A stretch of DNA of 64,000 nucleotides from Lentilactobacillus farraginis DSM 18382 = JCM 14108 (lineage in GTDB: Bacteria > Bacillota > Bacilli > Lactobacillales > Lactobacillaceae), in NCBI RefSeq assembly GCF_000583655.1, contig NZ_BAKI01000011.1, positions 1 through 64,000 on the forward strand, written 5' to 3'. Position 1 is the stretch's first letter. Every line of letters starts with the position of its first letter. The position numbers were made by a program, and so were the translations under genes. The notes beneath the pieces are model-generated. The model searched no databases, was not told the origin of the DNA, and saw nothing but the letters and a program-made list of their open reading frames with translations. This document shows positions 26,717 through 31,981 of the stretch, piece by piece.

Positions 26717-26789
26717 TGACCTCACCCGGACTCGAACCGGGATCAACCGCTTAGGAGGCGGGTGCCCTATCCAGTTGTGCTATGAGGCC
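26717..26789 (-). tRNA. tRNA-Arg (anticodon CCU)
   Basis: Read on the minus strand, 73 bases fold as a tRNA. The 7-bp acceptor stem pairs GGCCTCA with TGAGGTC (one G-U), the anticodon loop CTCCTAA carries CCT (reads AGG, arginine), and the T arm has the invariant GGTTCGAGTCC. The CCA end is not encoded, as is common for many Firmicutes tRNAs. No integrase or prophage lies next to it. Confidence 0.93.
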
Positions 26790-29335: not shown

Positions 29336-29691
29336 TTGCGCAAAAGAAGCATTATTATCTTTTTAATTTCTTTTCTCATCGGTTTTTTTCGGACCCCCAA
29401 ACGTCAAAAACAGGCAACCCACGTTGATCCCCTGTTTTTGCCGGCACTTGGTATTTTAAAGATGCCCACAACCGGCGACACAAACTTGAAGTGGGTCCCG
29501 ACCTCAAGTTGACAATTGATGGCAACGATTCATCGGCCAAAGTTTCTGCTGTAAAAAAATACCAAGTTTCCTACGTAGATCGTTACGGCTACAAATTAGA
29601 AATTCGGGCAAATGAAGCCCGCCCCGTTAAATTTTACGATGAATCCGACAATAATACTTATGACTTAAATTCAAGTTTAGAGAACCGCTAA
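29336..29691 (+). pseudogene. DUF4828-like protein, one frameshift
   Basis: The likely start is TTG at 29336, placed well after GAGGGG. The first part is basic with a short hydrophobic segment (SIIIFLISFLIGFF). The second, in another frame, is a small beta-rich domain (GTWYFKDAHNRRHKLEVG, then GPDLKLTIDGNDSS) ending at 29691. Adding one T to the T-run at 29435-29439 joins them (DPLFFAGTWYFK) into about 119 residues. This resembles the DUF4828 family of Lactobacillales. The function is unknown. The homopolymer location suggests a sequencing error. Confidence 0.7.
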
Positions 29692-29724
29692 AAGCAGTCG
29701 CAGGACATTTGTGGCTGCTTTTAT
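29690..29724. terminator. Bidirectional terminator
   Basis: Arms AAAAGCAG (29690-29697) and CTGCTTTT (29715-29722), flanked by A/T, between the convergent DUF4828-like and GH25 genes. Confidence 0.7.
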
Positions 29725-29741
29725 AATGCCGCCCTGCCAAC

Positions 29742-30503
29742 TTAATTTTCAAGATAACGGGCCCACTGCCGGCGACTGCCGTTAAAGACCGACATTGGCA
29801 GAAATATCACCTGCCGATCCAATGTAAAGTGCTGCTTAGGGGTAACCAGCATAAAAGTAGCGTCACCATTTGGCTTCCCCAACTGTGCGTCCGTCAGCCA
29901 AAATTGGGTCCGTTCTGTAGCTTGCAGCTTAAGGTGCTGCATGATGGTATGACTTGTTGAAATAATCACCGGCCGCTTATAGTAAGTCCGAATGGCCGTC
30001 ATCAACTTTCGGATATGCTTTCGAGCAGCTGACCAGTGAACCGTCCCCTCATCGTAATTCCCATAATACTGAACTAAAATGCAAATTGGCAAACTACCGG
30101 TATTGGTAGCAACCTGACGGACAAAATTCTTAAATTGCGCTTTGGGCGAACTGCTAAAGCTAAAATAATGATAAACGCCAACCGGCAGTTGAGACCCCTG
30201 GCTGCGTTGAAAATTACTTAAAAAATTATCGTCAGCATAGGTTGCCCCCTGAGTTGCTTTTAAGTAAACAAACTTAACCCCATTATTTTTTAAACTTTCA
30301 AAATCAATATAACCATTACTTTGATCAATCGAAACGCCTCGAATCGGATATTTTTTCAATTCCTGTTTTGCGTGCCAACGCCAAATCGAAAAAAGCGTGA
30401 CCAGCAAAAGGAATAACAAAAAAATGCCAAAAATCACCTTACGGGTTCGCTTTCGCCGTCGGTAAGTTTCAGCATAAATTGGTTGAATATCTCTTCGTCG
30501 CAT
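29742..30503 (-). CDS. GH25-fold membrane-anchored protein, probably catalytically inactive
   Basis: A 253-residue protein with a basic N-terminus, one membrane helix (about 24-42) and a GH25 (muramidase) domain outside the cell. The fold is clear: RGVSIDQSNGYIDFESLK, FVYLKATQGATYADDNF, GVYHYFSFS and a C-terminal VFNGSRRQW. The first acid, Asp60, is present. But the family's central D-x-E pair, expected just before YYGNY, reads L143-V-Q145, and the C-terminal acid expected before SVFNG is also missing (L235/P236). Three of the four catalytic acids are lost, so I infer a wall-binding pseudoenzyme. Confidence 0.75.
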   Translation of the reverse strand: MRRRDIQPIYAETYRRRKRTRKVIFGIFLLFLLLVTLFSIWRWHAKQELKKYPIRGVSIDQSNGYIDFESLKNNGVKFVYLKATQGATYADDNFLSNFQRSQGSQLPVGVYHYFSFSSSPKAQFKNFVRQVATNTGSLPICILVQYYGNYDEGTVHWSAARKHIRKLMTAIRTYYKRPVIISTSHTIMQHLKLQATERTQFWLTDAQLGKPNGDATFMLVTPKQHFTLDRQVIFLPMSVFNGSRRQWARYLEN

Positions 30504-30567
30504 AAATCTTCATCTCAGTTATATTGGGAATATTTTTCTGGTGGTGTGGCTTGTTTCATACACTAGT

Positions 30568-30688
30568 TTAGGACTGCTCCGCTAACCATAAACCTGCACG
30601 TAAGGGATCCCTTTTAAAAATCCAAACCCGGGATTTCTAAAAAGAACGCCTTACGCTCCGGTTTATCCCGGGTTAGCTCCGCACACTG
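30568..30688. repeat. Structured tandem repeat, copy 1
   Basis: First of two adjacent units of about 121 bases, from TTAGGACTGC to GCACACTG, spaced 123 bases apart. It folds into one long nested hairpin: GCTAACC/GGTTAGC (30581-30587, 30671-30677), ATAAACC/GGTTTAT (30588-30594, 30660-30666), GTAAGG/CCTTAC (30600-30605, 30649-30654), CTTTT/AAAAG (30611-30615, 30640-30644) and AAATCC/GGATTT (30618-30623, 30631-30636). Confidence 0.75.
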
Positions 30689-30690
30689 TT

Positions 30691-30812
30691 TTAGGACTGC
30701 TACTCAAAGCAATGCCGCTCCGTCTAAGGGATAAATCTTAAAAATCCAAAACCGGGATTCCTAAGATTCACGCCTTATACTCCGGGCATTAACCGCTTTG
30801 CTTCGCACACTG
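30691..30812. repeat. Structured tandem repeat, copy 2
   Basis: Second unit, diverged from copy 1 but with the same nested pairing by compensating changes: AAGC/GCTT (30707-30710, 30795-30798), AATGCC/GGCATT (30711-30716, 30785-30790), TAAGG/CCTTA (30725-30729, 30773-30777), AATCTTA/TAAGATT (30734-30740, 30762-30768) and AATCC/GGATT (30743-30747, 30755-30759). It ends against the stop codon of the RpiR-type regulator. The two copies fill the gap between the regulator and the GH25 gene. Confidence 0.75.
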
Positions 30813-30813
30813 T

Positions 30814-31659
30814 TTATCCCCTAGTACTTTCAATTATATTTTGGACGCTATGGATTGTGTCTTCAGTTGCCGGCCCCATTCTGACCGTTGCCATCATGAA
30901 CAAAGTATCAATAATCGTCATTTGTGCCAACAGTGAGTACATCCCTTCGGAGCGGTAATTAGACTCGTCACTTGAAGAAATAAATGCAATATCACTATGA
31001 CCAACTAACGGCGAGTCCTGATAACTGGTAATTGCGATCACCGGAACCTTACGGCGTTTCAGTGTCTCGGCAATTTTAATTGTCTGCCGGTTCTTTCCGG
31101 AATGTGAAATAACAATCGCACAATCATCCTCCCCCAATTTTACAGCTTGCATCAACTGTACGTCAAAGTCGGGGTAGTAAAAACAGTCAATCGACGTTCT
31201 TAAAAATTTGTGGTACCCATCCAAAGCAGCTACCGAAGACCCCCCTAAGCCAAAAAAGCCTAACCGGCGGCAATGAATAATCCGAAGTACCGAACGGGCA
31301 AATTCAGACTCATCAATGCTTTCCCGAGTGTCTTGAAGCGCCCGCTGTGAACCGGAAAAAATTTTATCCGCAATCGTCGACAACGTGTCGTTTGCATCAA
31401 TATCCTTAAAAATCGGTAAATTTTGCGGTCTTAATTGCGTATAGGCTAACGATAACGTGAATTCACGAAAATTTGAATAGCCAAGTGTTTTCACTAATCT
31501 GGAAACAGATGCGGTTGACGTATCAGTAACGGCTGCCAAATCCTCAATATTGGCTTCCGAAGCAGCCTGTGGGTTTTCAATAACATATTTTGCAATTTTT
31601 TTGTTCGTCCGACTTAAATTATCAAAAGATTGTTTCAATATTTGAACTGGTGAGCTCAT
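30814..31659 (-). CDS. RpiR/MurR-family regulator, probable gluconate repressor
   Basis: A 281-residue regulator with an N-terminal helix-turn-helix domain (IEDLAAVTDTSTASVSRLVKTLG) and a C-terminal SIS sugar-phosphate-binding domain (about 120-270; GLGGSSVAALDGYHKFL and VISHSGKNRQTIKIAETLK). It is divergent from gluconate kinase and permease genes with two palindromes between, so it most likely controls them in response to a phosphorylated sugar acid such as 6-phosphogluconate. The ligand is inferred from context. Its stop codon abuts repeat copy 2. Confidence 0.88.
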   Translation of the reverse strand: MSSPVQILKQSFDNLSRTNKKIAKYVIENPQAASEANIEDLAAVTDTSTASVSRLVKTLGYSNFREFTLSLAYTQLRPQNLPIFKDIDANDTLSTIADKIFSGSQRALQDTRESIDESEFARSVLRIIHCRRLGFFGLGGSSVAALDGYHKFLRTSIDCFYYPDFDVQLMQAVKLGEDDCAIVISHSGKNRQTIKIAETLKRRKVPVIAITSYQDSPLVGHSDIAFISSSDESNYRSEGMYSLLAQMTIIDTLFMMATVRMGPATEDTIHSVQNIIESTRG

Positions 31660-31717
31660 TTTTAATCACCTTTCATTCTATCTATAAAGAGCGGTTAATT
31701 ATTACAATTCCAATTAC

Positions 31718-31734
31718 TTGTAAATATTTTACAA
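31718..31734. promoter_or_regulatory. Palindromic operator 1, gluconate control region
   Basis: TTGTAAA-TAT-TTTACAA is a perfect 17-bp palindrome between the divergent regulator and gntK. It has the same spaced TGTAA/TTACA pattern as the HexR sites of the RpiR family. It lies 8 bases upstream of the gntK -35 and near the regulator's own promoter region. Confidence 0.6.
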
Positions 31735-31742
31735 CAAAAAGG

Positions 31743-31771
31743 TTGCATTGTGAAATTGTTTTTCATATAAT
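31743..31771 (+). promoter_or_regulatory. Promoter of gntK-gntP
   Basis: -35 TTGCAT (31743-31748), 17-bp spacer, perfect -10 TATAAT (31766-31771). The leader to gntK is about 205 bases. I see no cre site, small gene or clear terminator in that leader, only a GGGAGG near 31870 without a usable start codon. Confidence 0.7.
31751..31765. promoter_or_regulatory. Palindromic operator 2 inside the gntK promoter
   Basis: TGAAATTGTTTTTCA has TGAAA/TTTCA arms and fills the spacer between the -35 and -10 boxes of the gntK promoter, an ideal place for repression. It resembles operator 1 loosely. Confidence 0.45.
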
Positions 31772-31981
31772 ATTGTAGTCGCTTACATTAAGCAAAAAGA
31801 AAGATGCTTATGTTTGATGCAATGCGGTAGGCATGGTAAATTTAGTGCGAAGCGATATCGGAATTGGGAGGTTCTTTTCGTCTTTTTTAATTATGAAACC
31901 AACTATGTATTATTTTAGCGTGTTTTTTCAGATTCGAAAACCGATATTTCTAACTTTAATTTCAGAAAGGAAGTTATTTTA

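Follow-up and report, generated by a model that had tools for sequence, protein, structure and literature searches.

The genome of Lentilactobacillus farraginis DSM 18382 contains a high-copy repeat family, often in tandem arrays, whose units of ~124 nt each form a single long hairpin that is maintained by compensating changes. The starting point was the window, a stretch of 64,000 nucleotides (positions 1 to 64,000 of contig NZ_BAKI01000011.1), in which an array of two tandem units (30566-30813, minus strand) occupies the space between a RpiR-type regulator gene and a GH25 gene (Table 1). In the reading that we prefer, to which we give a probability of roughly 55%, the element is a structured non-coding repeat that forms an mRNA hairpin at gene ends, either in the 3'-UTR or between cistrons, and that spreads non-autonomously. 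The family is best called a small structured interspersed repeat, a known kind of element whose nearest representatives are BOX, REP, ERIC and bcr1, and is itself apparently undescribed. A strongly structured repeat, with up to dozens of copies in a single lactobacillus genome, is absent from Rfam 15 and, if the element sets message stability or message separation in operons, it would represent an overlooked genome-wide layer of gene control.

The window array and its neighbours

The first-pass annotation of the window had described two tandem repeats with nested hairpins, a description that holds (Table 1). Over an ungapped core of 91 nt the two units share 76% identity, and 87 of the 123 columns of their alignment are invariant (~71%, by counting). 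Each of them folds into one long nested hairpin, for which the five nested stems reported initially are a fair by-eye description, although RNAalifold draws four helices (3, 7, 7 and 25 pairs). That description had been made on the plus strand; however, the better-paired strand is the minus one (RNA fold z of -4.94 and -5.24, compared with -3.27 and -3.35 for the plus strand), on which the RpiR and GH25 genes are likewise encoded. The AGTG at the start of the 5' unit lies 2 nt past the RpiR stop codon, and the array ends 62 nt before the GH25 gene.

Table 1. Features of the window array and of related units elsewhere.
Feature	Location	Strand	Evidence or remark
5' unit (first in RNA order)	30689..30813	-	cmsearch, model 1-125, 132.2 bits; fold z -5.24
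3' unit (second in RNA order)	30566..30689	-	cmsearch, model 1-125, 132.8 bits; fold z -4.94
Possible degenerate copy of the unit's 5' start, closing the array (AGTGTATGAAACAAGCC)	30548..30565	-	by eye; p 0.14
TAA stop codon of the RpiR-type gene, abutting the array	30814..30816	-	ORF 30814-31659; sequence
RpiR-type regulator gene (HTH_6 + SIS), upstream, co-oriented	30814..31659	-	PF01418, PF01380
GH25 gene, downstream, co-oriented	29742..30503	-	PF01183; orthologues in 24/24 genus genomes
Second-subtype units, own contigs	C115:27003, C116:14607, C109:24086, C127:103596
Near-identical unit by divergent gene	L146-L150, L152, L074 around 1501-1623
SufB/D-type units	L022, own contig C94, 7971-8648		L. 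hilgardii (L090) arrays at matching flanks

No intrinsic-terminator-like site (a GC-rich stem plus a T run) is present in 29650-31900, which makes read-through into the next gene plausible and led us to reject an intrinsic terminator as the identity of the element. Rfam 15 has no match over the element at gathering score and none at E <= 1 in 30450-30950; the sole match in the window at gathering score is a tRNA gene (26717-26789, minus strand). The Rfam sRNA Ref68 (Lacto-3), which matches one element-bearing locus (L144, 2914-3041), was discarded as a candidate: ~1.3 kb separates it from the element, and the two fold differently. In the literature, covered through open-licence papers so that a description elsewhere could be missed, no description of the repeat was recognised.

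A single hairpin maintained by compensating changes

For 55 full units of the L. farraginis genome, which were found by similarity to the window units so that their pair counts lean towards the fold, the RNAalifold consensus comprises 42 pairs, 26 of them with compensating changes on both sides. In this alignment 98.1% of 2309 cells are paired, compared with 83.0% in 500 shuffles; both sides have changed in 367 cells, compared with 103 in the shuffles, and the covariation score of 0.465 (0.167 in the shuffles) was reached by none of the 500. Structures slid by 1-3 columns pair in only 33.7-45.7% of cells. The 33 units gathered from many genera, whose counts lean the same way because they were found by similarity to the window units and with a covariance model of the same fold, have 93.2% of cells paired (63.8% in shuffles) and both-side changes in 38 of 43 pairs. 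Despite this leaning, the size of the effect and the slid-structure controls make chance untenable. The claim that the fold is under selection is supported, including the excess of compensating changes over controls in a larger alignment on which the first-pass annotation had made it depend. Linkage between the classes of nested stems is weak (z 0.2 to 2.1) and both arms of each stem stay matched, which may mean that nested modules have been exchanged or that the stems evolve independently. The unpaired segments, namely CGGTTAG and the apical loop, are conserved across genera.

The fold had been ascribed to RNA or single-stranded DNA alike, and of these two RNA is the one favoured. When the own-genome units are read on the minus strand, their non-Watson-Crick cells comprise 231 G.U and 6 A.C, the latter being what G.U on the opposite strand looks like. 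Removal of four columns in which G.U is the majority leaves 60 G.U and 6 A.C, and in the cross-genus units the ratio is weaker (85 to 21). This preponderance of G.U shows that the pairing favours RNA of one strand, which is the minus strand in the window. However, single-stranded DNA folds better than shuffles too (z -2.6 to -3.9) and DNA tolerates G.T better than A.C, so that the DNA form becomes less likely and nothing more.

Placement at stop codons and candidate role

A usable 5' end is available for 48 of the 52 own loci (the position count excludes the other 4), and of the arrays at these loci 31 run in the same direction as the preceding gene (sense) and 17 in the opposite one (antisense), so that sense arrays predominate. 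With gene ends called by a longest-ORF script rather than by annotation, 20 of the 31 sense arrays have their start at -3 to +5 nt relative to the upstream stop codon. Restricting the set to the 28 sense arrays with a called downstream gene, 18 lie at the stop, compared with 5.8 expected under uniform placement and a maximum of 13 in 200,000 simulations. A wider, overlapping set of 71 arrays was drawn from 123 loci by excluding duplicates, arrays whose best unit scores < 40 bits and arrays that lack a full 5' end or lie < 200 nt from the locus edge; a sense upstream gene is present for 49 of them, and by counting 35 of the 49 start within -3 to +5, the zero point of the distances being set here one base further upstream. 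Of 24 sense cases in other genomes, 14 are at the stop, 4 of the 14 representing one orthologous gene and 7 of the 14 belonging to genera outside Lentilactobacillus; these come from 34 loci, which overlap the 71-array set and remain from 43 after removal of three (two 5'-truncated, one without a match) and of six flank duplicates.

This placement fits an mRNA-end element as the candidate role. By anatomy and by analogy with REP, BOX and bcr elements, the element would be transcribed into mRNA as a 3'-UTR or intercistronic hairpin, and its stem of ~40 pairs, sited directly past the stop codon, would act as an obstacle to 3'-to-5' decay or as a processing point. Such a barrier would protect the upstream message or separate it from what follows, giving the two cistrons different fates; in the window, the RpiR message would be separated from that of GH25. 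Copies would spread non-autonomously, through some mobiliser or through recombination between copies, and would be kept at gene ends because the protein is left intact there. Against this mRNA reading stand the 11 of 31 sense arrays that lie off the stop, the 17 of 48 arrays that are antisense, the antisense copies near CorA genes described below, the ability of DNA to fold as well, the weaker ratio of G.U to A.C in the cross-genus units and the failure of the mobiliser screen described below to yield a candidate. In five of the 11 sense arrays away from the stop, the ORF extends into the element for 5 to 37 nt and only then reaches its stop. The distance between the own antisense arrays and the divergent gene ranges from 19 to 622 nt, and some arrays of other genomes have their start ~20 nt ahead of a divergent start codon.

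The exact start at the stop codon would also suit an element acting on translation termination, in which a hairpin 4-12 nt past the stop influences the terminating ribosome through recycling, reinitiation or read-through to the next cistron; the exact position of the hairpin would then be selected. Intercistronic cases are in keeping with this, such as that of a SufB/D-type gene, which is followed by a single unit located 8 nt before the next gene (FeS_assembly_P), itself followed by a second single unit (Table 1). With 11 of 31 sense arrays elsewhere, 17 arrays antisense and some arrays of other genomes just ahead of divergent start codons, we regard this alternative as distinctly improbable. 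About equally doubtful is the idea that the Bacilli harbour a hitherto unrecognised RNA-level repeat whose targets are the stop codons themselves. The commonest own junction, found in 9 of the 20 stop-adjacent arrays, consists of a T that becomes TAG with the element's own AG, and copies might thus be placed past the first letter of the stop by a mechanism tied to mRNA or to termination. If this were true, the family would amount to a mobile 3'-UTR that passes between the ends of genes and leaves proteins unharmed.

The conservation across genera of the unpaired CGGTTAG segment and apical loop could also be accounted for by a class of regulatory RNA, riboswitch-like or bound by a protein, with a coherent set of target genes. 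However, the genes followed by the 20 stop-adjacent arrays of the own genome are a mixture of metabolic, transport and regulatory ones (17 have a Pfam family), the element follows genes instead of preceding them, and most of the orthologous sites read are empty, all of which makes this possibility very remote. The mixed functions of the upstream genes likewise led us to reject a functional regulon. The exact placement of the element at stop codons makes two questions accessible to testing, namely how such repeats choose their sites and what effect a hairpin directly past a stop codon has on a message.

Copies in the genome and spread among Bacilli

Querying the draft genome of L. farraginis (2.84 Mb, 129 contigs) with the window pair, BLASTN lists 65 matches at E <= 10, and a script applied to the stretches around the BLASTN and model matches delimits 109 pieces at 52 loci, including 80 full units. 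One full unit is present at 23 loci, two at 14, three at 7, four at 2 and none at 6. Units at different loci attain identities of 98.4% and 96.7%, with up to 98.4% for pairs in different contigs, and the median pair is 72% identical. A second subtype with an AGAGTG... start, as in other genera, exists in this genome beside the main AGTGTG/AGTGAG type (Table 1).

An exact pattern across the unit junction was found in 20 stretches, which comprise copies in Lentilactobacillus hilgardii, dabitei, raoultii, rapi, fungorum and parabuchneri and one contig filed as a Fibrobacteres MAG (L094 51-70). Covariance model R1 matched 20 of 60 relatives at E <= 0.01, that is 17 of 24 genomes of the genus (including the own genome and a very weak match in G018), 3 of 13 from other genera of the family and 0 of 23 from other families; in a wider draw at E <= 1e-4 it matched 42 of 151 Lactobacillaceae genomes and 17 of 40 genera. 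Further copies had been anticipated from the window pair and exist in abundance, in the own genome as well as across the family, and the view of the element as a dispersed intergenic repeat was correct. Model R2, which was built from many genera, matched 11 of 299 genomes of the class, namely the own genome and 10 in five other families. Copy counts from these multi-genome model searches are lower bounds, as at most 58, 23 or 11 candidates were scored per genome. Some R2 matches in other families are tandem units with a ~123-nt period. The repeats of these families (L191-L194, L196) read AGAAAAGCGGAAGC...GGAGCTGGACAA and have a plan like that of the Lactobacillaceae units, several of them in tandem; by eye, this plan consists of a base stem, stem A, a C-G-x-T-T-A-G-like segment, stem B, an inner stem and a return-side CTG. 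The Lactobacillaceae family and its look-alikes in other Bacilli likely share common descent. In seven genomes of six genera, a near-identical unit lies by the same divergent gene (Met/His-rich start, by eye; Table 1), as if the region had been transferred horizontally in its entirety.

Filled and empty sites and the anatomy of arrays

In a profile scan of the GH25 loci of the 24 genus genomes, the RpiR-GH25 spacer contained the element in two cases, the own genome with two units and L. hilgardii with one; at two other loci, pieces are found behind GH25 instead (L106; L104 weakly). Ten of the 24 RpiR-GH25 spacers were read, of which two are filled directly behind the RpiR stop and eight are empty. 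A second site is provided by the CorA gene, which has the TAG junction in the own genome and was found in 15 of 24 genomes. By eye, a sense element lies exactly at the native stop in 3 of these 15 (own genome, G003 and L. hilgardii, where the element is shortened and of another subtype), and the remaining orthologues end at the corresponding residue without an element at the stop. Filled and empty orthologous sites therefore exist, and the occurrence of RpiR and CorA orthologues with and without the element indicates that the protein end is native at these two sites. No obvious short target-site duplication was seen by eye at the two filled/empty sites. Four CorA orthologues have antisense copies of the family in the spacer, <=320 nt past the gene (L185, L186, L187, L188; by eye).

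Many arrays are closed by a remnant of the unit's own start, as at the L. hilgardii RpiR-GH25 site, where a ~19-nt copy of this start follows the unit. The sequence past the last full unit resembles the unit start in 30 of 46 own arrays (p <= 0.01, shuffling), and a remnant score >= 14 is found in 27 of 46 own arrays compared with 1 of 44 control stretches; the remnant of the window array is not significant alone (p 0.14). In a set of 30 arrays with such a remnant, obtained with a partly different cut from that of the preceding count, the remnant resembles its own array's first unit more closely than the first units of other arrays (0.80 vs 0.75), a value as high being reached in 0 of 20,000 permutations; compared with the inner units, the first unit is not clearly closer (p 0.06, 16 arrays). 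In genera other than Lentilactobacillus, the 5' arm is often missing from later copies while the 3' arm is retained. Five loci (L066, L106, L143, L144, L161) have one full unit and then partial copies without the 5' arm, in which the inner hairpin and the 3' arm are kept. Together, this anatomy suggests that recombination among the copies underlies at least part of array growth and exchange.

A selfish DNA repeat could likewise show dispersed copies, both filled and empty sites, folding of single-stranded DNA and tandem arrays that end in a 5' remnant similar to their first unit. In such a repeat the hairpin would serve as the single-stranded substrate of some transposase or recombinase, as in REP and IS200/IS605 ends, and would have no role in mRNA. 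This is the foremost competitor of the mRNA hairpin, but we consider it unlikely, in part because of the excess of G.U over A.C (231:6) and in part because of the distribution of candidate enzymes. The screen for a mobiliser covered the Y1_Tnp (RAYT/TnpA-type) and RVT_1 families in the 24 genus genomes. Y1_Tnp is present in 7 of them and absent from the element-rich G003, G004, G006, G014 and G019, and the sole own copy (contig C122, 62283-62657) lies ~41 kb away from the single array located on this contig; a link to a REP-like transposase, for which the first-pass annotation had suggested a test, is not supported. RVT_1 is present in 8 of 24 and absent from the own genome, G004, G006 and G014. 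Eight element-bearing genomes lack both families (G004, G006, G008, G009, G013, G014, G021, G022). Neither distribution tracks the element, and both the Y1 transposase and the RVT_1 reverse transcriptase of a retroelement were rejected as mobilisers. The element is moreover nearly absent from plasmids and absent from phages for the queries used: the window query gave one weak plasmid match (Secundilactobacillus paracollinoides, 70 nt, 78.6%) and none in phages, and one unit each from two other genera matched neither plasmids nor phages. A 16-base pattern has matches in two viral contigs (L201 3479-3501; L202 6557-6579), and a second pattern matched no viral contig.

Comparison with known repeats

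The nearest parallel is BOX, which is likewise structured, intergenic and high-copy. In the available part of its description, BOX of Streptococcus pneumoniae, together with RUP and SPRITE, is presented as able to be co-transcribed and as currently dormant; it is modular (boxA, B, C), with terminal inverted repeats likened to those of IS, and 36 copies provide the stop codon at the extreme 3' end of a gene, the evidence for truncation not being strong (PMC3049150). Unlike BOX, the element has one 124-nt hairpin per unit, no terminal inverted repeats, head-to-tail arrays and a range of many genera, this comparison being one with the published description and not with sequence.

REP/BIME elements with RAYT are palindromic extragenic repeats for which, in the sections drawn on here, an effect on mRNA stability and movement in trans have been proposed (PMC3733652, PMC2817692), and REPs are given as 20-40 bp long with a GTAG or CGTC tag (PMC3733652). 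The present unit differs in its length of ~124 nt, in having no constant GTAG at either end (own-genome consensus AGTGTGCG...GnAGCAGTCCTAA) and in that Y1_Tnp does not track it. It also differs from MITEs, which have terminal inverted repeats of 15-30 bp, as its outermost 6 5' columns are unpaired and its first helix comprises only 3 pairs. The absence of these defining features sets the element apart from both groups.

The bcr1-bcr18 repeats of the Bacillus cereus group share with the element an intergenic location and structure, a likeness judged from descriptions and not from sequence. As far as the excerpted account goes, about half of their copies are in mRNAs, some have a conserved RNA structure, bcr3 is correlated with mRNA decay rate in B. 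cereus and bcr1 is called MITE-like (PMC3446304); the length of Bcr1 is listed as 147-167 bp (PMC2267715). The families Sta-1, Bhal-1 and Efa-1, recorded in the portion of that survey at hand as intergenic with a common stem-loop or double hairpin and with sizes of 105, 74 and 163, respectively (PMC2267715), differ from the element by listed size, again by description and not by sequence. The same portion lists a family of L. johnsonii, Lac-1, which is 231 bp long and lies within coding sequence (PMC2267715).
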